Shown here: piece after piece, positions 2,024 to 14,068 of the stretch
Position numbering within the stretch: the first letter of the stretch is position 1
Layout of the letters: each line of letters begins with the position of its first letter
Source: Candidatus Eisenbacteria bacterium
Lineage (GTDB): Bacteria; Eisenbacteria; RBG-16-71-46; JAFGJU01
Assembly: GCA_026388185.1 (NCBI GenBank)
Contig: JAPLKG010000001.1
Location: 1-14,068 of the forward strand
Direction of reading: 5' to 3'
Length of the DNA: 14,068 nt
The notes under the pieces: model-generated
Told to the model about the DNA's origin: nothing
Seen by the model: the letters and a program-made list of their open reading frames with translations, nothing else
Databases searched by the model: none
Made by a program: the position numbers and the translations under genes

Positions 2024-3226
2024 CTACGATGTATTGAACTTTAAAGGGTCGAACCCGGCGAGGCCGAGTGGGTCGAGGGTTTCGACAAGGAGGAGTCGTC
2101 CCTCCTTGCAGGCCGGGCAGAGATCCGGGTGAACCTCTTGGGCGGTTCCGGCTAGCTTGTGTGCGGGAGTCTCGGAGGCTAGGGCGTGCTTGTCGGTTTT
2201 CTGAGCGAGGAGCTTTCTTATGAGCGCGAGCTTCTGCTTTCGTCCCCGATTTGCCAGGAAGCCATAGTGGCGGATGTGCATGAAGCCAGTGGGGAGGACA
2301 TGGAGCAGGAACCTTCGTATGAACTCCACGGCGTCGAGGCTCATCGTTTTCTGGCAATTGCCGTGGGCGTAATCTCTCCACAGAAAGGTAACTTTCCCAT
2401 CTTCGAGCGACAGGAGTCGTTGGTTTGATATTGCGACTCTGTGGGTGTAACGGGCGAGGTACTTGAGTACCAGGCTGGCGCCCCCAAAGGGTGGCTTGGC
2501 GTACACGACCCACTCTGTGGCAGTTAGAGTAGCAATCCACTCTGACCAGTTCTGGGGCTCTCTGAGGTGCTCGAGGGTTCCATGGAGGCTGAGCTTCCCG
2601 GTGCTGTATGCCGCCGTGAGAAGGCCAAGGAACTTCTTGCGGAAAAGGCGGCTTAGAACCCGCACCGGGAGGAAGAAGTTCTTTCTGGATGATATCCATT
2701 GCATGCCATCAGGCGAGATTCCGCCGCCGGGGACGACGCAGTGGACGTGCGGATGGTGGTGCAGGTTCTGACCCCAGGTGTGGAGCACGCTGAGGAAGCC
2801 GACGTCGGCGCCTAGATGCTTTGGATCTTTTGCTATTGTGAGGAGAGTCTCAGAAACGGCACGGAACAGGAGGCCATAGACGAGCTGTTTATTCTGTAGG
2901 GCCAGTGGGCCGAGACTCTGGGGGAGAGTGAAGACCACGTGGAAGTACGGGAGATCAAGCAGCTCTTTCTCCCTCGCCTCAAGCCACTGCGCCCTGGCAG
3001 CGGCCTGGCATTTTGGGCAATGCCTGTCACGGCAGGAGTTGTAGGAGATCTCCTCATGACCGCAGAGATCACATCTTCTTTTGTGGCCGCCCAGGGCCGC
3101 GGTGCGACAGACCGAGATGGCTCGCAGGACTCGTCTCTGACTCGTCGAAGTTGGACCGCAAGCTTCTAGGTACGCGACCCCGTAGCTCCGGAAGACATCA
3201 GCCACCTCCGGCCCACGTTCCCTCAT
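2024..3226 (-). CDS. tnpA: IS91-family transposase (Y2 HUH rolling-circle type)
   Basis: 400 residues, near the usual IS91 transposase length. An N-terminal zinc-ribbon is visible (C52, C55, C65, C70, C73 in RCDLCGHEE...CRDRHCPKC). The HUH metal-binding motif is at residues 156-162 (HHHPHVH, core H160-V-H162). The two candidate catalytic tyrosines are Y256 and Y260 in YLARYTHRVAISN, the two-tyrosine arrangement of IS91 proper rather than the single tyrosine of ISCR elements. The family motif RHYGFLANR follows at 319-327, and a second CxxC (C370, C373) sits near the C-terminus. The enzyme nicks at oriIS and drives rolling-circle-like, single-strand transposition. The ATG overlaps the upstream recombinase stop as TAATG, so translation is probably coupled. 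All key residues are present and the frame is intact, so it could be active. Confidence 0.95.
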   Translation of the reverse strand: MRERGPEVADVFRSYGVAYLEACGPTSTSQRRVLRAISVCRTAALGGHKRRCDLCGHEEISYNSCRDRHCPKCQAAARAQWLEAREKELLDLPYFHVVFTLPQSLGPLALQNKQLVYGLLFRAVSETLLTIAKDPKHLGADVGFLSVLHTWGQNLHHHPHVHCVVPGGGISPDGMQWISSRKNFFLPVRVLSRLFRKKFLGLLTAAYSTGKLSLHGTLEHLREPQNWSEWIATLTATEWVVYAKPPFGGASLVLKYLARYTHRVAISNQRLLSLEDGKVTFLWRDYAHGNCQKTMSLDAVEFIRRFLLHVLPTGFMHIRHYGFLANRGRKQKLALIRKLLAQKTDKHALASETPAHKLAGTAQEVHPDLCPACKEGRLLLVETLDPLGLAGFDPLKFNTS

Positions 3227-4071
3227 TAGCTCTCCGGGGTATGAACCGCTTCCAGCAGGCTTTGCGTTGGCTGAAGAGCCCGTGTCGAGACGTGGAGGTA
3301 GGTGGCTGTCGAGCTGAGGCTGCGATGGCCGAGTAATAGTTGGATGGTGGGCAGATCAGTGCCAGCCTCGAGAAGATGTGTGGCAAAACAGTGACGCATG
3401 GTGTGTGTCGTGACAGGCTTGGAGAGACGAGCCTTCCTGCGGGCACGGGAACAGGCCATTTGGACGACCCTTGTAGAGAGAGGCTGATGTGATGGCCTGC
3501 CGGGGAAGAGCCAGGACTTTGGTTTGTAAACGCTCCAGTATTCCCTGAACGCGGTCAGGGGCGCGGAAGAGAGCGGCACGTAGCGGTCGCGGTTGCCCTT
3601 TGCCTGACGGATGCGGACAAGCATGCTCTCGCTGTCAATGTCTGCGACGCAAAGACCTGTGGCCTCCGAGACCCTTAAGCCGGCGGCATACATAGTCATG
3701 AGTATTGTGCGGTGCTTCAGATTCTCCACAGCCTGGAAGAAAGCCCTGAGCTCACCGACGCTTAAGACAACAGGAAGCCTCTTCTCTCGCCTGGGATAGG
3801 CAATGTGCTCCACGCTTTCCCGTCTGCCGAGTGTCACCTGGTAGAAGAATCGCAGAGCACAGACAGTCTGGTTGAACAGGGCCCAGGAAGCGCGCTTGCT
3901 CTTGACGAGAAAAAGCTGGTAGTCTCGGATGTGTTTAGGGCCAAGCAGGTCCGGGGACTTACCAAAGTGGCTGGCATAGCTTGCAACGCAGCGGGTGTAG
4001 ACATTGATGGTGTTTTGTGAGTAGTTGCGGATACGTAGATCTTCGATCATCCTCTGGCGTAGAGAGCTCAT
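3226..4071 (-). CDS. Tyrosine recombinase of the IS91-type element (XerC/D-like)
   Basis: 281 residues. Residues 1-90 form a SAM-like core-binding domain (RIRNYSQNTINVY...LRFFYQ), the rest the catalytic domain. The catalytic set is complete: R133 (AAGLRVSE), K158 (RQAKGNRDRYVPL), H223-x-x-R226 (HTMRHCFATHLLEAG), H249 (LLGHRS) and nucleophile Y258 (TATYLHV). The AAGLRVSE and LLGH blocks resemble the recombinases that accompany IS91-type transposases and, more distantly, integron integrases; the extra IntI-specific insertion is not seen. The ribosome binding site AAAGGAG sits 6 nt before the ATG and falls in an arm of the inverted repeat at 4080-4141. The stop overlaps the transposase start by one base. 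Probable role is resolution or integration of transposition intermediates; that role is inferred. Confidence 0.92.
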   Translation of the reverse strand: MSSLRQRMIEDLRIRNYSQNTINVYTRCVASYASHFGKSPDLLGPKHIRDYQLFLVKSKRASWALFNQTVCALRFFYQVTLGRRESVEHIAYPRREKRLPVVLSVGELRAFFQAVENLKHRTILMTMYAAGLRVSEATGLCVADIDSESMLVRIRQAKGNRDRYVPLSSAPLTAFREYWSVYKPKSWLFPGRPSHQPLSTRVVQMACSRARRKARLSKPVTTHTMRHCFATHLLEAGTDLPTIQLLLGHRSLSSTATYLHVSTRALQPTQSLLEAVHTPES

Positions 4072-4316: not shown

Positions 4317-5177
4317 TCACATGTTTGCAAGCGCCTTCCTGAGTACCTTGTCCTCGACCATGACGTAGATCTCGGTGGTTGTGATGTGTCTGTGTCCGAG
4401 CGCACGCTGTACCAAATGCAGGTCGCCTGTCTTGGAGTAAAGTCTTGCGGCAAAGGTGCGACGCAGCGAGTGAACCGAAAGTGGTTTTGTAATGCCAGCG
4501 AACCCCAGCCAGTGCTTAAGCCTCAGCTGGACCTGGCGCGGGCCAAGCTTGCCGCCGTTGCGGGAACGGAAGAGCGGTGTTCCATCTGTGGCACTCACGG
4601 CCTTGATGTAGCGAGCCAGCAACTTGCAAAGCCGTGCGTTGAGGAATACAGTCTCCTCTCGTCCACCTTTGGTGTTGATAGTGATGGTTTGCTCGGCAAG
4701 ATTGACGTCGCCCGTGTTCAGACCGACCAGCGAGCCGAGCCTCATGCCGGTCCCAAGCAGGAGCGAGAACATCGCGTGGTCTCTTTTGGCAAGGGCGCTG
4801 TTCGAGTCGGCAATTGCATCGAGCAATCTCCTCGCTTCGTCGATAGACAAGTAGCTCGGTACTCTCCTGTCAGTCGGCGTCGAGCGAATCAGCCTTGCCG
4901 GGTTTTCGGCCAGGTAGCCTGCGTCGGTGAGGAAGCGGAAGAACACTCGCAAGGCAGTCTTGGTCCGATTGATAGTCAGTGCAGACTTAGGCTCGCCGTT
5001 CCCATCAGCAAGAAACCGGGCAAGCTTGTCTGGATTGATGGCCGTGACCGACACATCCGTGCCGAGCCAGCACTTCAGCTTGTCCAGATCCCTGAGGTAC
5101 GCTTGCCTTGTGCGTTCACTCTTGCCATCGGCGCGGAGCTGCGTGTCAAAGCACTTCGTGACTGTGGAAAGCTTCAT
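4317..5177 (-). CDS. Second tyrosine recombinase/integrase (XerC/D-like), outside the IS91-type element
   Basis: 286 residues. Residues 1-100 are a core-binding domain (SERTRQAYLRDLDKLKCWLG...INRTKTALRVFFRFL). The catalytic residues are complete: R146 (GTGMRLGSLVGL), K170 (TKGGREETV), H236-x-x-R239 (HSLRRTF), H262 (LGHRH) and Y271 (TEIYVMV). It differs clearly from the recombinase at 3226-4071, so it is not a duplicate. The start is supported by AAGGAGGTG 5 nt upstream of the ATG. It lacks the extra IntI patch of integron integrases and is shorter than most phage integrases, fitting a Xer-type or genomic-island recombinase. It lies just outside the right arm of the IS91-type element. It is the only other recombinase in the window and so a candidate, by proximity only, for acting on the repeat-bearing region to the right. 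Confidence 0.9.
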   Translation of the reverse strand: MKLSTVTKCFDTQLRADGKSERTRQAYLRDLDKLKCWLGTDVSVTAINPDKLARFLADGNGEPKSALTINRTKTALRVFFRFLTDAGYLAENPARLIRSTPTDRRVPSYLSIDEARRLLDAIADSNSALAKRDHAMFSLLLGTGMRLGSLVGLNTGDVNLAEQTITINTKGGREETVFLNARLCKLLARYIKAVSATDGTPLFRSRNGGKLGPRQVQLRLKHWLGFAGITKPLSVHSLRRTFAARLYSKTGDLHLVQRALGHRHITTTEIYVMVEDKVLRKALANM

Positions 5178-5558
5178 GGTTTCACCTCCTTCTTTGTGGA
5201 TTCTGAGGCTGTGACCATGAACGCTCTCCCGCCAGTGACAGTCAAGCAGGTTAACCGAAGAAACTGCTCGTTTGGGCAGCGTTCAGGGCCTTTCTGCCGG
5301 TGTTTGCCCGCGGGGCCGCCACACAGGCGCCGTGTGGCCGTGTCTACAGGGAGGCAGGTATCTATCCATGCCTAGCCCTTGTGAAGGAGGGCCTGACGCG
5401 CGAAATGGCGCAGATCCTGGCAAAACCGAAGGCCATGGGTGGGAGCGACCAGCTATCCGGACAGCAGGGCTGAGAGGTACTCGCCGATTGCGGGGCTGTG
5501 AGAAGGGTCCCCTCGCCAGACGACATGAAAAGGATTGACATACGAGGTCACATAGTGT
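5178..5558. other. Probably decayed or non-coding region with a start-less open stretch
   Basis: No intact gene is called. Between a TAA at 5252-5254 and a TGA at 5471-5473 there is a plus-strand open stretch of 72 codons without ATG at its beginning. Its composition is protein-like (for example REAGIYPCLALVKEGLTRE and LAKPKAMGGSDQLSG). After the stop, a neighbouring frame continues in similar style (EVLADCGAVRRVP..DDMKRIDIRG). This suggests the frameshifted remnant of a displaced gene. The family is not recognised. The segment also contains one copy of a diverged 49-bp repeat (5469-5517). Confidence 0.35.
5469..5517 (+). repeat. Diverged 49-bp direct repeat, copy 1
   Basis: Aligns without gaps to 9937-9985 at about 37 of 49 positions, sharing GATTGCG and GTCCCCT blocks. 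Both copies lie in gene-poor sequence ahead of a plus-strand gene. Origin unknown; it could be the remnant of a shared decayed gene, since one reading frame gives AERYSxIAxL in both copies. Confidence 0.45.
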
Positions 5559-6927: not shown

Positions 6928-6969
6928 CCAGATTGGTTCACAGTGCATCCAAGCGGAAGGACGGAGGAA

Positions 6970-9411
6970 ATGCATAGAGACGGAGAGACGCAACTGCGGG
7001 TTCGCATCGCGTTAGTGTTCGTGTTTGCCATGGCGCTCTTGACCCTGTGGGCGCCGTGGTCGCTGGCGATAGAGGGGAACGGCAAACTCCAGATCCATCA
7101 TATCGCTGTGGGCCAGGGGGACGGCGCGGTCATCATCACTCCGGAGGGCCGGGTTGTTCTCGTAGATAGCGGGGACAACTGCACACTATTCGTGAGCTAC
7201 ATCAGCAGTCTGGGCATAACGAGTGTAGACTACCATTTCGCGTCACACTACCACGCTGACCACATCGGGTGCCTGGATAACCTCCTTGCGACCGGCGTGA
7301 CGCTCGACATCGCCGGATACGACAGGGGATACTCCTACACGACCCAGGCTTACACGACCTACGTGAACACCCTTGGCGCCAAGAGACAGACCATGGCCAA
7401 GAACCAGGTCGTCACGCTAGACTCACTGTCGGCGCATCCGGTGTACATCAAGTGTGTGGACTTGAACGGTGCCGGAGTCTATTCGCCAACCGGCAGCGAT
7501 GAAAACGCAAAGAGCATGGTACTCAAGGTAAGTTACGGTGAGTTTGACGAATCCCTGGGAGGCGACCTGACTGCGAGTCCTTCGGTGGAGCCCACGGTAG
7601 GCCCTGAGATGGGCGATGTAGAGGTGTACAAAGTCCATCACCACAGTGCCTCGACATCTAGCTATGACGCCTGGCTCAATGCGACTACTCCTGAAGTGGC
7701 CGTGATCTCCCTTGGTGGCAATTCCTATGGCTATGTTCCGGCGGCAACCCTCACGAGATTGCACAGCCACGGGGTGAAGACATACTGGACCAACGCGGGT
7801 TCCTCTGCGAGCCCGGTTGAGGGTTGGGACAAGGTCGGAGGCAATATCGTCATCCAGGCCGACTGGAGCCCGGGGGCACCGTACACGGTCACCGGCAGCG
7901 GCTTCGTTGACACCTACTACAACTCTGGCACCGCTGCGGACCTGACGCCGCCGGAGGTTGCGGTGCTCAAGCCGGTGGGTGGTGAGATTCTGTATGTAGG
8001 TTCTGAGGAAATGATTGAGTGGATCGCCACAGATAATGTGGGTGTCGACTCGGTCAGCATGTACTACTCCACGGACGGCGGGGCCACTTTCCCGTACACG
8101 ATTGCCACAGGCGAGCAGAATGATTCGAGTTACACATGGTTAGTTCCGGATACCCCCTCGGACAGCTGCGTTGTGAAGATTGTCGCGTACGATTCCTCGC
8201 TCAATTCCGGGGAGGGCGTCAGCGCGTCGCTTTTCAGCATCCGGGGCGAGGTGGGCGTGGACGGAGCCATCGCCGCCTGGGGGTTTAATGGCACTGCGCA
8301 GTGCAACGTCCCTGCGCCGAATGCCGACTTCGTAGCAATCGCTGCAGGCTGGGATCACAGCCTGGGCCTTAAGTCCGACAGCACCATCGTCGCCTGGGGG
8401 TATAATAACAGCGGGCAGTGCAACGTCCCCGCGCCGAATGCCGACTTCGTAGCAATCGCTGCAACCGGGCGTCACAGCCTGGGCCTTAAGTCCGACAGCA
8501 CCATCGTCGCTTGGGGTGATAATGGCGAGGGGCAGTGCAACGTCCCTGCGCCGAATGCTGACTTTGTAGCAATCGATGCAGGCGGGTGGTTCAGCCTGGG
8601 CCTTAAGTCCGACGGGACCATCGTTGCCTGGGGATTGAATAACTTTGGGCAGTGCAACGTCCCTGTGCCGAATGCTGACTTCGTGGCAATCTCAGCAGGC
8701 GGGGATCACAGCCTGGGCCTTAAGTCCGACAGCACCATCGTCGCCTGGGGGTATAATGGCAATGGGCAGTGCAATGTCCCTGCGCCGAATGCCGACTTCG
8801 TAGCACTCGCGGGAGGCTGGTATCACAGCTTGGGTGTTAAGTCCGATGGGACCGTCGTTGCCTGGGGGAGGAATGACTATGGTGAGTGCAATATTCCTGC
8901 AGAGAATGCCGACTTCGTAGCAGTCGCGGGAGGCTGTATGCACAGCTTGGGCGTTAAGTCCGATGGGACCATTGTCACCTGGGGGTGGAACGAAAGTGGC
9001 CAGTGCAATGTCCCTGTGCCGAATGCCGACTTCGTAGCAGTCGAGGCGGGCGGGTATAACAGCCTGGGTTTGAAACGCCCATCTGTGATTTCTGTTGAGG
9101 GGCCCAAGCCAGCCGTTGTGCCCGGAGCATCTATGCTCTCAGTAGTGTCTGTTTCACCCAACCCGTTCAATCCCTCTGTAGAGATTGTTTTCGAAAGGCA
9201 GGGGTCGGGTCAGGTAGCTATGGAGATCTATGATGTGAGGAGTAGGCACATAAGGACGGTGTCTCTTGGGTTTTTTGGGTCCGGTCTGCACAGGGCACGG
9301 TGGGACGGACGGGATGCGAGCGGGGCTGACGTGTCTTCGGGGGTGTACTTCATACGTCTTTGGAGCACTGAGGCGGAATCCCTGCCGGTGAAGGCTGTAT
9401 TGATCCGCTGA
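6970..9411 (+). CDS. Exported ComEC-like metallo-hydrolase / Ig-like / RCC1 propeller / FlgD-Ig tail protein
   Basis: 813 residues from ATG 6970. GGAGG ends only 2 nt before this ATG, but the upstream GTG at 6943 has no site at all. Signal segment: VRIALVFVFAMALLTLWAPWSLA. Residues about 35-310 form a metallo-beta-lactamase fold of the ComEC/Rec2 C-terminal type: VGQGDGAVII, VLVDSGD, the metal motif H93-x-H95-x-D97-H98 (SHYHADHIG), H223-H225 (KVHHHSAS) and VISLGGNSYGYV. Residues about 325-425 are an Ig-like domain. Residues 432-702 are seven RCC1-like repeats of about 39 residues, giving a beta-propeller. Residues 726-813 are a FlgD-Ig/type IX-like tail (SPNPFNPS...GVYFIRL). ComEC-type domains are linked to DNA or phosphodiester hydrolysis; no ComEC membrane channel is present, so the substrate is unknown. 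Likely secreted and surface-attached. Confidence 0.9.
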   Translation: MHRDGETQLRVRIALVFVFAMALLTLWAPWSLAIEGNGKLQIHHIAVGQGDGAVIITPEGRVVLVDSGDNCTLFVSYISSLGITSVDYHFASHYHADHIGCLDNLLATGVTLDIAGYDRGYSYTTQAYTTYVNTLGAKRQTMAKNQVVTLDSLSAHPVYIKCVDLNGAGVYSPTGSDENAKSMVLKVSYGEFDESLGGDLTASPSVEPTVGPEMGDVEVYKVHHHSASTSSYDAWLNATTPEVAVISLGGNSYGYVPAATLTRLHSHGVKTYWTNAGSSASPVEGWDKVGGNIVIQADWSPGAPYTVTGSGFVDTYYNSGTAADLTPPEVAVLKPVGGEILYVGSEEMIEWIATDNVGVDSVSMYYSTDGGATFPYTIATGEQNDSSYTWLVPDTPSDSCVVKIVAYDSSLNSGEGVSASLFSIRGEVGVDGAIAAWGFNGTAQCNVPAPNADFVAIAAGWDHSLGLKSDSTIVAWGYNNSGQCNVPAPNADFVAIAATGRHSLGLKSDSTIVAWGDNGEGQCNVPAPNADFVAIDAGGWFSLGLKSDGTIVAWGLNNFGQCNVPVPNADFVAISAGGDHSLGLKSDSTIVAWGYNGNGQCNVPAPNADFVALAGGWYHSLGVKSDGTVVAWGRNDYGECNIPAENADFVAVAGGCMHSLGVKSDGTIVTWGWNESGQCNVPVPNADFVAVEAGGYNSLGLKRPSVISVEGPKPAVVPGASMLSVVSVSPNPFNPSVEIVFERQGSGQVAMEIYDVRSRHIRTVSLGFFGSGLHRARWDGRDASGADVSSGVYFIRLWSTEAESLPVKAVLIR
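8263..9075 (+). repeat. Seven tandem ~117-bp repeats encoding RCC1 propeller blades
   Basis: Seven units of about 39 codons, each with IVAWGxNxxGQCNVP, NADFVAI and HSLGLKSD blocks. Blades 1-5 are very similar at the nucleotide level (for example TGGGCCTTAAGTCCGAC is shared exactly); blades 6-7 have drifted (GECNIP, SLGVKSDG). Seven blades is the canonical number for an RCC1 propeller. The near identity points to recent expansion or gene conversion. Every blade keeps one Cys in the QCNVP block. Confidence 0.9.
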
Positions 9412-9788: not shown

Positions 9789-9889
9789 GCATACATCTGA
9801 CTAGAGGTCCCCTGATTTCATGCAGCAAACCACGCCTTTTCCCCAGCTTTCTGCCCTGCTTTCCCGCTGAAAGAATCTTCGCCTGAGCC
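9789..9889 (+). repeat. ~100-bp direct repeat, copy 1 (upstream of ferritin-like gene)
   Basis: Matches 10864-10965 at roughly 80% with a few small gaps. The last 23 bases, starting CTGAAAGAATC and ending GCCTGAGCC, are identical. Differences do not follow a codon pattern on either strand, so it is probably not coding. It ends 212 nt before the ferritin-like start codon. Confidence 0.8.
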
Positions 9890-9936
9890 TCACAATTGAA
9901 CTGTCGCCCCTTACGGCGAGCCATGCCGACCTGAGG

Positions 9937-10776: not shown

Positions 10777-11065
10777 TGTGACCCCACGTTGATCCTGCCT
10801 CGTCGTTGATATCGACGAACCCGCCGCAAGGACTCCGCACTACAAGCATCAGGGAGTCGGGAAGCATACCTCTGGGCAGGCTCCCCTGAATTCACGCAGC
10901 AAGCCCCGGCCTTTTCCTTCCCCTTTCTGCTCTGCTTTCCCCCTGAAAGAATCTTCGCCTGAGCCGCAGAAACAACTTGCCATCCCTTGCCCCCAGAGCG
11001 TTCATGGACTTAGGCAGTCATTGTAACTGCTTGCATGAAAGGCTCTTAGAAAGGAGGTGAGAAAC
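10777..11065. other. Intergenic region holding the second 100-bp repeat and a leader hairpin
   Basis: No gene is seen. It contains repeat copy 2 (10864-10965), and, closer to the next gene, a small hairpin with arms GCAGT and ACTGC (about 11015-11031). No clear sigma70 promoter was found for the gene starting at 11066. Confidence 0.5.
10864..10965 (+). repeat. ~100-bp direct repeat, copy 2 (upstream of the 179-residue gene)
   Basis: Partner of 9789-9889, with about 80% identity and an identical 23-base end. It ends 100 nt before the start codon at 11066. The two copies bracket the ferritin-like gene with its promoter, as expected if that gene arrived as a unit or the flank was duplicated. 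Confidence 0.8.
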
Positions 11066-11605
11066 ATGGCAAAGAAGGCGAAGAAAGGCAACGGAAAGGC
11101 CAAGGTTGCGGCGAAGCACAGGCAATCCGAGCAATCGTCCCAGGCCGCAAAGCCCGCACACGTGGCTTCCGACTTGGATGCGCTACGCAAGCCGGTACTC
11201 GACGCCAACGCTGGCCTGACCAAGGCTGAAACCGAGGCCAAGGCGCTCGTGGACAAGGCGCAAGCCCTCGTTGCAACGGCCAGAGGTCAGTACCGCGAGG
11301 CAGCAGCGCTCTACCGCGAAGCCTGCCGCAAGGCCGGAGTAGATTGCGAGTTCGAAGGCGGGCGCTCCACCAACGTGAGCCCCAAGGTCAGCTTCATCGT
11401 TGAGAAGGCTGACAAGGGCATCCGCGTGATGGTGAAGGGGAAGCCCGAGAGCGAGGAGCTGATCCCGCTGTCAGCGCTCAAGGCATCGATTGGCAAAGCG
11501 GCTTACGCCTACACCGACAAGCACGTCGGTCCGCGAGAGCGCGTGGGGAACAAGGGCGGGACGCTCGGAAACAGGCTCAGAGCTGTGATGGCTGGGAAGA
11601 AGTAG
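11066..11605 (+). CDS. Basic 179-residue protein of unknown function; full-length source of the repeated C-terminal tail
   Basis: ATG 11066 follows AAGGAGGTGAG, a near-perfect ribosome binding site; the GTG at 11057 lies inside that site and is rejected. Residues 1-30 are Lys/Ala/Gln rich (MAKKAKKGNGKAKVAAKH). Residues 35-92 form one long Ala/Glu/Arg-rich helix, probably coiled-coil. Residues 95-130 look like beta strands (VSFIVEKADKGIRVMVKG). Residues 137-179 are a basic Gly-rich tail: AYTDKHVGPRERVGNKGG, then TLGNRLRAVMAGKK. No signal peptide or membrane segment. The charge pattern suggests nucleic-acid binding, but no family is recognised. The tail region recurs, out of frame, behind the next three genes (12168-12233, 13170-13262, 13856-13996), so this appears to be the one intact member of a gene family in the window. 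Confidence 0.85.
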   Translation: MAKKAKKGNGKAKVAAKHRQSEQSSQAAKPAHVASDLDALRKPVLDANAGLTKAETEAKALVDKAQALVATARGQYREAAALYREACRKAGVDCEFEGGRSTNVSPKVSFIVEKADKGIRVMVKGKPESEELIPLSALKASIGKAAYAYTDKHVGPRERVGNKGGTLGNRLRAVMAGKK

Positions 11606-11615
11606 TAGACTGAGT

Positions 11616-11641
11616 AAGGACCGTCTGTGATAGGCGGCCTT
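11616..11641 (+). terminator. Hairpin terminator behind the 179-residue gene
   Basis: AAGG, bulged A, CCGTCT, loop GTGAT, AGGCGG, CCTT, then GCTCTTTCC. The stem includes one G-U pair where the copy at 12244-12269 has an A-U pair, so base pairing is kept while the sequence changes. The weak T-run fits a modest intrinsic terminator. Confidence 0.65.
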
Positions 11642-11683
11642 GCTCTTTCCTGTTCTGTGTTGATTAAGGACACGCTTTGGCAA

Positions 11684-11712
11684 TTGACAGGCAAGCTATT
11701 CGTGACTATGCT
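11684..11712 (+). promoter_or_regulatory. Sigma70 promoter upstream of the 65-residue membrane protein gene
   Basis: TTGACA (11684-11689), 17 nt, TATGCT (11707-11712). The same promoter with the same spacing recurs at 12290-12318, including flanking ATTGACAGGCA and ACTATGCT. The predicted leader to the ATG at 11921 is about 200 nt and contains hairpins. Confidence 0.7.
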
Positions 11713-11718
11713 GTGGCT

Positions 11719-11769
11719 GATTGAGCAGAGAGTGTTGTTATGCGGAAACCGCGTAATATCAGCTGTAGA
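11719..11769 (+). repeat. Leader repeat with TTATGCGG-AAA-CCGCGTAA hairpin, copy 1
   Basis: Aligns with 12329-12377 (shared CAGAG, GCGGAAAC, TAA and TAGA blocks). Here it forms an 8-bp hairpin (11738-11745 with 11749-11756, one G-U pair, AAA loop). It lies directly after the promoter, so it would be at the 5' end of the transcript. Confidence 0.5.
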
Positions 11770-11825
11770 TGGTGAGATTGTCGCTTAGGGTATCATCATA
11801 AGATAGTTGGACGACGTGCAGGCTG

Positions 11826-11885
11826 CGAGTGTTATGGCGCTCCAAAGGCGCTTATCTGGAAACGGTATGAGCCGTAGTTCGGCAG
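11826..11885 (+). repeat. Structured leader element with GGCGCTCCAAAGGCGC hairpin, copy 1
   Basis: A CGAGTGTTAT block is followed by GGCGCTCCAAAGGCGC (11836-11851), identical to 13495-13510. A second potential stem, ACGG with CCGT, follows at about 11871-11875. It ends about 35 nt before the start codon at 11921. It may be a structured mRNA leader or part of a recombination site. Confidence 0.6.
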
Positions 11886-11920
11886 CCAAGGGAAACGCAG
11901 GATCAGCGGAGGGGGGGATA

Positions 11921-12118
11921 ATGAGGAAGTTCTTTGAGTCAGGCCTTGCCTTCATGCTAGTTGCCCTGGTTTGGATCGCGGTTGGCCTGCTTTCTGGCAG
12001 ACCGGGTTTGGGAGCTCTGGGAGTGTTTTGGCTAGTACTAGCGGTAGCCGTGAGAGCGAGGAGCACCAAGAAGCAGCGACCCACACCTGAGTCCCAGGGG
12101 AAGGACGACGCTACCTAG
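11921..12118 (+). CDS. Small membrane protein, 65 residues, two transmembrane helices
   Basis: ATG 11921 is chosen because of the strong GGAGGGGGG ribosome binding site just upstream; an in-frame earlier start at 11807 would add the structured leader and has no such site. Residues 4-24 (FFESGLAFMLVALVWIAVGLL) split as a first helix around MLVALVWIAVGLL, then GRPGLG turn, then a second helix GALGVFWLVLAVAV. The C-terminus (about residues 46-65) is a basic, polar tail (RARSTKKQRP...), so both ends are probably cytoplasmic by the positive-inside rule. No family is recognised. It is the second ORF of the cassette-like array, has its own promoter upstream (11684-11712) and is followed 49 nt later by a truncated copy of the tail of the 179-residue gene. 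Confidence 0.75.
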   Translation: MRKFFESGLAFMLVALVWIAVGLLSGRPGLGALGVFWLVLAVAVRARSTKKQRPTPESQGKDDAT

Positions 12119-12130
12119 CACGTATGAGGC

Positions 12131-12167
12131 CTCCCGCCGTCAAGGGATAGAGTCTCCCTTTGACCGG
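12131..12167 (+). terminator. Imperfect hairpin after the membrane protein gene
   Basis: CGCCGTCAAGGG (about 12135-12146) can pair with CCCTTTGACCGGCG (about 12156-12169) with small bulges, and overlaps the start of the tail remnant. It lacks a clean T-run. The junction between this gene and the tail remnant falls here. Confidence 0.35.
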
Positions 12168-12233
12168 CGCGTGGGCAACAAAGGAGGGACACTCGGGAAT
12201 AGGCTCAGAGCTGTGATGGCGGGGAAGAAATAG
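12168..12233 (+). pseudogene. Tail remnant B: last 21 codons of a paralogue of the 179-residue gene
   Basis: In its own frame (not that of the preceding gene) it encodes the final 21 residues of the 179-residue protein exactly, including GNKGGTLGNRLRAVM, and its stop codon. Compared with 11540-11605 there are 8 base differences, all synonymous third positions. There is no start codon or ribosome binding site, so it is not a gene by itself. The pattern says the sequence evolved as coding DNA before being cut from its 5' part. Confidence 0.8.
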
Positions 12234-12243
12234 CAAGCTGAGT

Positions 12244-12269
12244 GAGGACCGTCTGTGATAGACGGCCTT
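12244..12269 (+). terminator. Hairpin terminator behind tail remnant B
   Basis: GAGG, bulged A, CCGTCT, loop GTGAT, AGACGG, CCTT, followed by GCTCTTCGTGTTTT. Same design, bulge and loop as 11616-11641, with the G-U pair there replaced by A-U here. Confidence 0.65.
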
Positions 12270-12289
12270 GCTCTTCGTGTTTTGTGCGA

Positions 12290-12318
12290 TTGACAGGCAG
12301 ATGATTCACAACTATGCT
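12290..12318 (+). promoter_or_regulatory. Sigma70 promoter of the lipoprotein gene
   Basis: TTGACA (12290-12295), 17 nt, TATGCT (12313-12318), with flanks nearly identical to those at 11684-11712. Transcription would start near 12325, about 65 nt before the ATG at 12390. Confidence 0.7.
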
Positions 12319-12328
12319 CAACTAGGTT

Positions 12329-12377
12329 GATCGGACAGAGGCTTCTTGGGCGGAAACGGCATAAAGGCGCAGTTAGA
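12329..12377 (+). repeat. Leader repeat, copy 2
   Basis: Homologous to 11719-11769: GA, CAGAG, GCGGAAAC, GCATAA and a closing TAGA. It occupies nearly the whole 5' leader of the lipoprotein gene, ending 12 nt before its start codon. Confidence 0.5.
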
Positions 12378-12389
12378 CACGGAGAGCTA

Positions 12390-13088
12390 ATGAAACGTAT
12401 TAGCGAGTTTACGTGCAGGGCATTTCTTCTTGTTGTGCTCTGTGCAGTGCTGAGCTGCAGCCGTTCGTGCTCTGGTTCGAGCGTCAGAAGTATGGGACCG
12501 GTAAGTTCGCCCGATTCAATCCCGGCTGTGGTGCTCCAAGAGTCTCTCAGGTACGTTGCTTCGCGGATGGGAGCGCAGTTCCGTCGCGATAGCGTTCGAT
12601 TTGACCGTGCGCGCTCGCTGGCTCATCCCATATTGCCGCCTGATTTTGTCCGGCTTCACCCGGACCTTGCTTCTTTGCCATGGTTTCGCATGTGCTTTCG
12701 CTTTAGTGTGCCAGAATCGCCGTGGGTCGATGGCAACATGGAGTTCTTCGTTGACGGCCGGGGCCATCTTCTGCCGGATACACACGTGGACGGAATACCT
12801 GATTGTGTTCACCAGCCCTCGGAGTGTGTGTTTCCGATAGACGAGGCCGAAGCCTTTCGCCTGGCCAAAGAAGCGGGTCTGGAAGAGGGGCTAAGACCCT
12901 GGAAGGCCTCGTTTCATTGGTTGCGGGTCGGCGACAAGGATTTGATTTCTGGCACATACGTCTGGGACGTCAGTAACACGCGTGACGTATCACTCACGCG
13001 AGAGGGCGGCGATGCAATAGTGATCGACGCAAACTCCGGGAAGGTAGTTTACGCCCACATGGGATGGGGAGCACTATTCTCTCGTTAG
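12390..13088 (+). CDS. Predicted lipoprotein, 232 residues, with PepSY-like C-terminal region
   Basis: ATG 12390 follows GGAGAG and starts a lipoprotein signal: basic MKRISEFTCR, hydrophobic AFLLVVLCAV, then lipobox V20-L21-S22-C23. An upstream alternative start at 12327 would bury the leader repeat in coding sequence and is rejected. After a Ser-rich linker, the soluble part has RLHPDLASLPWFRMCFRF, then MEFFVDGRGHLLPD. The C-terminal part, FPIDEAEAFRLAKEAGL followed later by YVWDVSNTR and GGDAIVIDANSGKVV, resembles a PepSY domain, which is usually found in the periplasm or cell envelope and often linked to protease inhibition. That resemblance is by eye only. Four further Cys residues are in the mature part. 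It is the third ORF of the array, followed about 80 nt later by tail remnant C. Confidence 0.75.
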   Translation: MKRISEFTCRAFLLVVLCAVLSCSRSCSGSSVRSMGPVSSPDSIPAVVLQESLRYVASRMGAQFRRDSVRFDRARSLAHPILPPDFVRLHPDLASLPWFRMCFRFSVPESPWVDGNMEFFVDGRGHLLPDTHVDGIPDCVHQPSECVFPIDEAEAFRLAKEAGLEEGLRPWKASFHWLRVGDKDLISGTYVWDVSNTRDVSLTREGGDAIVIDANSGKVVYAHMGWGALFSR

Positions 13089-13169
13089 TCGTGTTCGGCC
13101 GGCGGCTTGGAACCGACGGATACTGTCCCATCAACTCTTCTGCAGAAGCGAGCACCGTCGCGTCTTCCC

Positions 13170-13262
13170 TACACCGAGAAGCATGTGGGGCCGAGAAAAA
13201 AGGTGGGGAATAAGGGAGGAACATTGGGCAATAGGCTGAGAGCTGTGATGGTGGGGAAATAG
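13170..13262 (+). pseudogene. Tail remnant C: last ~30 codons of a diverged paralogue of the 179-residue gene
   Basis: Encodes YTEKHVGPRKKVGNKGG, then TLGNRLRAVMVGK and a stop, against YTDKHVGPRERVGNKGG and TLGNRLRAVMAGKK in the intact protein. Many third positions differ; amino-acid changes are few and mostly conservative (D to E, R to K, A to V). Upstream, GCG.CTT..CCTACACC still matches the intact gene but with a 2-base deletion, so the frame is broken there. No start codon or ribosome binding site. Confidence 0.8.
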
Positions 13263-13267
13263 GCTGC

Positions 13268-13304
13268 AAGTGTGAGGACTGCCGAATGGGCGGTCTTCGC
13301 ACTT
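13268..13304 (+). terminator. 16-bp hairpin behind tail remnant C
   Basis: AAGTGTGAGGACTGCC (13268-13283) pairs along its full length with GGCGGTCTTCGCACTT (13289-13304), including three G-U pairs, with a 5-nt loop. It occupies the same place as the hairpins behind tails A and B but has a different stem sequence. Confidence 0.7.
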
Positions 13305-13373
13305 CCGTCGCTTGCGTCACACCCATGACCCGCATATTGTGATTTAGTCTTTCTCCTTGCCTACAGTTTAGGG

Positions 13374-13403
13374 TTGACACAGGGCACGCCGGGACTTCAT
13401 CAT
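13374..13403 (+). promoter_or_regulatory. Possible sigma70 promoter in the region before the 77-residue gene
   Basis: TTGACA (13374-13379), 18 nt, CATCAT (13398-13403). The -35 is perfect but the -10 is weaker than in the other two array promoters. It lies at the equivalent place between hairpin and leader element. Confidence 0.4.
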
Positions 13404-13474
13404 GGTGTCACGTAATTGCACTGGATGATTGTCGTCTCGAGAATCACTACAAGGTACGTAGCGACTTTCGGCAA

Positions 13475-13540
13475 CGAGTGTCATATGGACAAGGGGCGCT
13501 CCAAAGGCGCCCGTCCGCAACCGGTGCACGGCATAGCTAG
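13475..13540 (+). repeat. Structured leader element with GGCGCTCCAAAGGCGC hairpin, copy 2
   Basis: A CGAGTGTCAT block (13475-13484), then GGGCGC-TCCAAAG-GCGCCC (13494-13512), a perfect 6-bp stem with the same loop as the copy at 11836-11851. Downstream AACCGG..CGGCATA and CTAGAAACGG blocks resemble the other leaders. It ends about 45 nt before the ATG at 13587. Confidence 0.6.
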
Positions 13541-13586
13541 AAACGGAGTGCGCGAGGTGCGTTTCCTGACGTGAAAGGAGGGTAAC

Positions 13587-13820
13587 ATGCCGACAATCAC
13601 GGTTACAGTTCTTCGCGATGGAGAACCGGCCAGCGGACATCGCGTGGCCCTCGGCTTCAGTGGGCCAGATGGAGGAATGTCTGATGCCGAATACACGGAT
13701 TCTGATGGCGTTGCGGAATTTGACGTGGAGGGCGGACAGGAGGGCGACGTATTTGTGGACGGTCGCAACGTTGACAGTTGGGGCTCGTACAACGCTACAG
13801 ACATTACAGTGGAATTGTGA
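13587..13820 (+). CDS. Small beta-sandwich protein, 77 residues (carboxypeptidase-regulatory/Ig-like style)
   Basis: ATG 13587 follows AAAGGAGGGTAAC, a strong ribosome binding site. The sequence has the strand and turn pattern of a single Ig-like or transthyretin-like domain: TITVTVLRDGEPASGHRV, then YTDSDGVAEFDVEGG and GDVFVDGR, with the usual rise-and-fall of a CarboxypepD_reg-type module. It is acidic and lacks a signal peptide, so it would stay in the cytoplasm or be carried elsewhere; a binding or structural role is possible but no function is claimed. It is the fourth ORF of the array. Tail remnant D begins 35 nt after its stop, in a different frame. Confidence 0.75.
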   Translation: MPTITVTVLRDGEPASGHRVALGFSGPDGGMSDAEYTDSDGVAEFDVEGGQEGDVFVDGRNVDSWGSYNATDITVEL

Positions 13821-13855
13821 GTCCTCGCCCGACAGACCTTCTGCTGCCATCCCGG

Positions 13856-13996
13856 CTCAAGGCAGGCGTCAACAAGGCTGCGTATGCTTACACCGACAAG
13901 CACGTCGGGCCGCGTGAGCGCGTGGGTAACAAGGGAGGTACGCTCGGTAACAGGCTGAGAGCTGTGATGGCGGGGAAGTGGCCACGAGCTGAGTAA
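13856..13996 (+). pseudogene. Tail remnant D: last ~43 codons of a paralogue of the 179-residue gene
   Basis: Longest remnant. It reads LKAGVNKAAYAYTDKHVG, then PRERVGNKGGTLGNRLRAVMAGK, against residues 138-178 of the intact protein, differing in only a few residues (ASIG to AGVN; final K to W). Almost all other base changes are third-position silent. The usual stop is lost (TGG instead of AAG, then CCA), so the frame runs on to TAA at 13994-13996. The frame differs from that of the preceding 77-residue gene, and there is no ribosome binding site of its own. Confidence 0.8.
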
Positions 13997-14000
13997 GGGC

Positions 14001-14057
14001 GGTTGACATAGACCCACAGGTGTTCAGAGGGCTTTCCCTCAGTCGGTTCTATCAACT
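14001..14057 (+). terminator. Nested hairpin behind tail remnant D
   Basis: Outer arms GGTTGACATAGACC (14001-14014) and GGTTCTATCAACT (14045-14057) pair with a small bulge; inside, GAGGG-CTTT-CCCTC (14027-14040) forms a perfect tight hairpin. It sits at the same place relative to the tail as the hairpins behind A, B and C but with unrelated sequence. The window ends just after it. Confidence 0.55.
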
Positions 14058-14068
14058 AGACTGCATCG

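Follow-up and report, generated by a model that had tools for sequence, protein, structure and literature searches.

Integron-like arrays of cargo genes ending in truncated copies of a putative phage hotspot gene in a Candidatus Eisenbacteria genome

The 14,068-bp stretch analysed here (the window) is contig C1 of the genome of an uncultured Candidatus Eisenbacteria bacterium (2.62 Mb, 20 contigs, 97.9% complete), and towards its right end unrelated small genes alternate with copies of the 3' end of a single gene encoding a 179-residue basic protein, here called P179. We found that this is one of several such arrays in the genome, and that their units share a P179 remnant of variable length (the tail) behind the cargo gene and a sharply ending motif (L) just in front of it. 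On balance, a prophage cargo hotspot adjoining P179 appears to have expanded into integron-like cargo arrays. The genome material was one metagenome-assembled genome representing one strain, and contigs are referred to below as C1, C10 and so on.

Anatomy of the array units

A typical junction contained, in this order, an open reading frame (ORF), a 5'-truncated P179 tail, a terminator, a sigma70 promoter (P1), L and the next ORF. A preliminary description made from the letters of the window had reported four copies of one 3' coding sequence, the first still attached to its gene, behind ORFs of unrelated type, and our analysis confirmed both points, with a two-helix protein, a lipoprotein and an Ig-like protein encoded before copies 2, 3 and 4, which were 77-87% identical to copy 1 at the nucleotide level. 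The same description took the repeat for the end of a coding gene; this holds for the tail, which is the P179 3' end, but most repeats run beyond the stop codon through the terminator, the promoter and L. P1 and the terminator recurred at most junctions, in contrast to the mostly promoterless cassettes of integrons, while the third window junction lacked P1 and had a decayed L. The terminator stem was 91% paired over 19 copies and showed no double-sided covariation.

Searching the tail DNA against its own genome returned 28 matches at E<=5.5e-9, far above chance, on seven contigs (C1, C10, C11, C13, C14, C18 and C19), mostly behind differing ORFs and with tails and units sharing one direction within an array, as had been proposed for a cassette system; the opposite possibility raised at that stage, that the genome holds only the four window copies, is thereby excluded. 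Full or nearly full P179 genes were attached to 5 of the 28 matches, several arrays were headed by intact P179 copies, and the longest array, on C11, comprised about eleven junctions across 13 kb. The tail was found in none of 46 other genomes of the phylum. Genome-wide, units held one or two cargo genes, with single-ORF cassettes in one direction as in integrons, and the encoded products included DUF4062, TPR, SIR2-like, TIR and STAND-TPR proteins, a CAAX protease, a nitroreductase, ICMT, lipoproteins and unknowns, the C11 array ending in an AbiJ-like gene and a DNA methylase.

Several contigs stop within repeats, so array lengths and the links between arrays are minimum estimates. The final 141 nt at the right ends of C1 and C19 were identical, the starts of C18 and C19 had exactly 141 nt in common, and the ends of C10 and C1 overlapped by at least 135-140 nt. 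Contig ends sharing 141 nt imply that the assembly graph branches within the tail, and identical ends of this length would fit an assembler k-mer of 141. The suspicion that the array continues past the right edge thus proved correct, since C1 stops at 14068 where the assembly branches inside the repeat. Branching at repeat borders may be caused either by the repeats or by strain variation.

The motif L is 44-66 bp long, lies just 5' of each ORF and ends sharply at GTTRGRC. Aligning 32 sites (consensus CACTTATCTGGAAACGGCATAAGCCGTAGTTRGRC, end part ..GGAAACGGCATAAGCCGTAGTTRGRC) revealed conservation from -44 to +6 around the G of GTT and about 0 bits from +7 onwards, and at many sites a second related unit stood immediately upstream. 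A same-strand ORF starting with ATG followed 31 of the 32 sites at a distance of 17-242 nt, with a median of 36 nt before the ATG. What lay upstream of L varied, and included P1 with a tail, another promoter (promoter 2) beside recombinase genes, other leaders, and the end of an ORF directly (C10:118627); L also preceded two toxin-antitoxin pairs on C2 and genes without any tail. No L was found in 48 relatives, and the patterns of L, the terminator and a further repeat (element X, described below) gave 0 matches in viral contigs. The only sharp edge shared by the units is L, directly before each ORF, and L seems a likelier exchange point than the tail.

Coding history and origin of the tails

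We compared substitutions at codon positions 1/2/3 among relic tails hand-chosen from copies long enough to align. Relics differed from the consensus at 0.087/0.067/0.290 and from one another at 0.132/0.120/0.426, with intact P179 genes differing from the consensus at 0.026/0.038/0.282; third positions accounted for 0.66 of the relic changes (bootstrap 95% 0.61-0.71) versus 0.33 expected, and 16/16 copies lay above one third. Between P179 copies dN/dS was 0.14-0.19, and the window gene is intact with 179 codons. The third-position excess indicates that each tail belonged to a working P179 for most of its divergence, so each would have become a relic recently and separately, from different P179 alleles. 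A single noncoding exchange site that had spread would differ equally at all codon positions, which the tails do not, arguing against such a history. The 5' breakpoints of the tails ranged from codon 49 through into the terminator, the edge varying by > 300 nt, as would be expected from independent joints. The earlier proposal that the tail is the exchange site of a cassette system was not supported, on two counts: a fixed 5' edge is lacking from the tail, and it did not behave as one noncoding site, the sharp edge lying at L instead. The tail appears to be a passenger and a record of each unit's making.

Four tails, at 28.0, 31.15 and 33.95 kb on C11 and at 64.5 kb on C18, carried a common diverged upstream coding piece (KLNST.PDYLEGVFVAAR), apparently representing a second P179 allele type.

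To the proposal that new genes had replaced the 5' parts of tandem P179 paralogues in place, the comparison of repeat blocks gave a divided answer. Blocks of one array were 0.747 identical and neighbouring blocks 0.755, against 0.763 for blocks of different arrays (permutation p=0.86), and since within-array identity did not exceed between-array identity, the arrays do not look like decayed tandem paralogues; local duplication would have made neighbours more alike, indicating that the blocks came from a common, diverged pool. The breaks inside the gene were supported; the tandem origin was not. Decay of a tandem family would account for tails that are real P179 3' ends and for intact P179 at the head of several arrays, but the region upstream of intact P179 lacks both L and P1, genes with L and no tail exist, and P179 has only 1-2 copies per genome elsewhere, making this explanation most improbable. 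Judged on these sequence comparisons, capture from a pool, rather than tandem decay, was probably the source of the units.

Two further origins were considered and set aside. Reverse transcription with 5' truncation does not fit a shared block that extends beyond where the transcript ends and takes in P1 and L (no search for target duplications was made). The varying tail edges speak against integration into P179 at a fixed att core.

Phage context, recombinases and a candidate exchange site

Relatives of P179 (46-65% identity) were present in two virus contigs and in genomes of Verrucomicrobiae, Desulfomonile and Planctomycetes, with 1-2 copies each; a C-terminal alignment returned seven loci (loci are given below as L with a number), and none was found in phage and plasmid records. 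Phage tail genes lay close to these relatives at L079, L084 and L087, giving the conserved phage-gene anchor of a hotspot, and variable defence-type cargo occupied the place directly downstream, namely a Snf2-helicase/type III methylase (L080), type III restriction-modification (L081) and a cytosine methylase (L084); at L083, on a second Desulfomonile contig, the downstream gene was the same as at L081. In the genome under study, a phage-like ParB-methyltransferase gene lay upstream on C10, C11 and C14, where no downstream anchor was found. On C14, the P179 5' end (37.8-37.5 kb) and a tail (20.2-20.0 kb) were parted by a recombinase platform and cassettes. In several phyla, then, the position just 3' of P179 has the look of a prophage cargo site of the kind known from the P2/P4 hotspots (PMC9122126), and P179 itself is likely a phage hotspot gene.

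A split P179-like gene was seen in genome G077, from another phylum, where N- and C-terminal fragments flanked an AAA-ATPase (DUF4143-like) gene (L077). The predicted fold of P179 was a long helix and a small alpha/beta domain (pTM 0.38), without a meaningful match.

Four paralogues of an Xer-like tyrosine recombinase (C1:4317-5177, C11:17.5-18.5 kb, C14:5.9-6.9 kb and a truncated copy at C14:32.4-33.2 kb) were all located near arrays and pointed away from them, sharing 73-80% amino acid identity with the C14 copy and having a dN/dS of 0.13-0.25, which indicates purifying selection. Immediately next to each of the two C14 copies stood promoter 2 and L, divergent from the recombinase (C14:5.6-6.9 kb and C14:32.4-33.2 kb). 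We therefore regard L as a tentative candidate for the recombination site of the Xer-like recombinase.

The expansion that we favour would proceed as follows. Each unit would be a single transcription unit comprising promoter, L, one ORF and a P179 stub with its terminator. New units would be supplied by related elements, either prophages or strains, that make up a pool and each carry P179, terminator, P1, L and cargo. The 3' flank of the older cargo gene would become fused to an internal position of the incoming P179 that differs from joint to joint, the terminator being kept because it insulates units. Units would then probably have been moved or swapped at L (core GTTRGRC) by the nearby Xer-like tyrosine recombinase. 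Several findings weigh against this course of events. No excision, circular form or strain difference was observed in this single genome, and no cassette was found twice; the L heptamer resembles the integron core GTTRRRY and is degenerate, being exact in only about 12/32 sites; and L always precedes a gene, so that it could be a transcription or leader element. In the window, 6 kb and several intervening genes separate the recombinase from the array, no good L adjoins it, and it is a generic Xer-like protein without a close relative in 98 other genomes or in viral contigs.

Competing explanations and known systems

A related possibility, with a chance of roughly one in three, is a capture system independent of integrons, in which a dedicated Xer-like recombinase family exchanges units at double-stranded L and a cassette is born when a gene is fused to a phage gene already resident, at its 3' end, the truncated tail marking each birth. 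A little less likely is that homologous or illegitimate recombination did all the work, co-infecting prophages stacking cargo by chance joints in P179 and through the action of RecA or phage recombinases on the shared block of 200-300 bp, with no site-specific system and with L as the conserved start of the native transcript. This would produce breakpoints that vary from codon 49 to within the terminator, tails that were coding until recently, shared blocks of 200-300 bp and an assembly that branches inside the tail, and exchange at hotspots of known phages is attributed to recombination close to conserved sites (PMC9122126); it leaves unexplained why the sharp-ended L stands downstream of several unrelated blocks and, across the genome, in front of single genes that have no tail, and why it lies directly beside two recombinase paralogues. 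If L, and P1 with it, were instead a regulatory leader of an accessory-gene regulon, such as an RNA element or an operator, with recombination incidental, its constant place upstream of a same-strand ORF would follow naturally. Pair counts for two possible hairpins gave no covariation for either, Rfam returned no match, the spacing to the ORF is loose, the motif ends sharply at a core-like heptamer and promoter types vary while L stays, and we consider this explanation rather unlikely.

The layout struck the preliminary description as integron-like, and it is. Layout, cargo and a GTTRRRY-like core would all suit a true integron with aberrant attC whose IntI gene was lost or left unassembled, as would an assembly with 97.9% completeness whose breaks fall in the arrays. 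However, no protein in the genome exceeded the IntI cut-off (TIGR02249), the array recombinases scoring 85-93 bits against a cut-off of 265, and canonical attC with paired R''/R' (RYYYAAC..GTTRRRY) occurred 0 times in the array stretches (shuffles 0-2); the cassettes carry promoters and terminators, and no long hairpin was found in L. A true integron is accordingly very unlikely, and because IntI and attC were sought and not found we do not file the arrays as one. The resemblance extends to single-gene units in one direction per array, wide functional diversity including toxin-antitoxin and defence-like genes, a 5' unit edge at a GTTRRRY-like heptamer, a tyrosine recombinase that at two loci points away from the first site, and an L built, like attI, from a core plus an upstream related repeat, attI1 having direct repeats (PMC2727003). 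The attI site comprises a degenerate core plus, in attI1, these direct repeats, and attC is conserved only at GTT and AAC (PMC2727003). In the arrays, by contrast, the recombinase is Xer-like rather than IntI, exchange would take place between double-stranded sites as there is no attC hairpin, most junctions bear the same long site, a separate promoter and terminator come with most units, and the 3' block holds a phage-gene relic.

Other known systems share part of this anatomy. P2/P4 hotspots and morons likewise place variable, often defence-related genes as independent transcription units next to a conserved phage gene, and P179 relatives in other phyla are followed by restriction-modification genes; known hotspots are single loci of 1-5 kb between two conserved genes (PMC9122126), whereas the units described here are repeated in arrays at several loci, and each unit ends in a stub of the anchor gene. 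The pdif/dif modules of Acinetobacter are comparable in that Xer-type recombinases mobilise accessory genes and toxin-antitoxin pairs as modules at short sites, but they are bounded by inversely oriented pdif pairs and use host XerC/D (PMC9455709). Within any one array the L sites all share a direct orientation, no inverse dif-like site pairs being found, and a dedicated recombinase family lies nearby. Genomic islands in gene 3' ends resemble the arrays in leaving a displaced 3' end copy behind the inserted genes, with a tail constrained as coding until displaced; they differ in having one fixed att core, unlike the shifting 5' edge of the tails.

The history of an integron cassette cannot be read from its attC site, and for this reason the way in which an arbitrary gene acquires a recombination site and a 3' end, and so is born as a cassette, is to our knowledge still an open question. 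Each unit here carries a datable piece of a known gene, from which joint position, source allele and age relative to the divergence of the gene itself can be read. Confirmation of L as a site would mean that integron-like arrays can arise by a second route, and would also provide candidate defence genes for systematic testing.

Table 1 Features of the array and its recombinase in the window
Feature	Coordinates	Strand	Remarks
P179 gene, head of array	11066..11605	+	intact, 179-aa basic protein; relatives in prophages/phages
Tail copy 1	11474..11605	+	attached to P179
Intrinsic terminator	11612..11649	+	repeats with tail; GGACCGTC..GGCGGCC + T-rich
Promoter P1, sigma70-type	11684..11712	+	repeated; TTGACA N17 TATGCT
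Extra partial L unit	11736..11757	+	no ORF behind
L of cassette 1	11827..11883	+	end GTTCGGC
Cassette 1 ORF	11921..12118	+	65 aa, two predicted membrane helices
Element X	12114..12166	+	second repeated 3' remnant (PYEASRRQG..); elsewhere too, after stop codons
Tail copy 2	12167..12233	+	relic, last ~21 codons
Terminator copy 2	12240..12275	+	
Promoter P1 copy 2	12290..12318	+	
L of cassette 2	12344..12378	+	end GTTAGAC
Cassette 2 ORF	12390..13088	+	232-aa lipoprotein
Tail copy 3	13168..13262	+	relic
Terminator copy 3	13268..13305	+	diverged; GAGGACTGCC..GGGCGGTCTTC
Decayed L-like sequence	13489..13545	+	before cassette 3
Cassette 3 ORF	13587..13820	+	77 aa, weak Big_1/Ig-like match
Tail copy 4	13855..13980	+	relic; contig end just 3'
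Xer-like tyrosine recombinase	4317..5177	-	divergent, about 6 kb upstream of array; one of four paralogues near arrays
Conserved region upstream of recombinase	5178..5433	.	shared with C11 and C14 copies

Some further repeats and neighbours were recorded around the arrays. An intergenic block (CTCCCCTGAATTCACGCAGCAAGCCC..) is repeated in the window at 9789-9895 and 10864-10971, upstream of P179 and of a rubrerythrin-like gene, with further copies upstream of P179 on C11, C13 and C19 and at C19:2.2-2.4 kb. Element X recurs at C11:36022, C14:17996, C14:47285, C6:3594, C18:61563, C2:32272 and about 19.0 kb on C2, mostly directly 3' of an ORF stop codon and also without P179 tail or L. Class C group II introns sit behind terminators, and a group II intron RNA was located directly 3' of a tail-terminator copy on C13 (L059, 6672-6949).

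On the minus strand of the window (2024-4071), an IS91-family Y2 transposase with its own tyrosine recombinase is inserted in the recombinase platform, and this recombinase scored 169.5 bits to the IntI profile (cut-off 265), closer than the array-associated one. Members of a large secreted protein family (C14:33573-37382, C14:7256-10594 and from C10:128.5 kb to C1:1.7 kb) always adjoin the recombinase on C1 and C14, in the same direction. The window also encodes, at 6943-9411, a fusion of a secreted metallo-beta-lactamase-fold domain, RCC1 repeats and a FlgD-like C-terminal domain.

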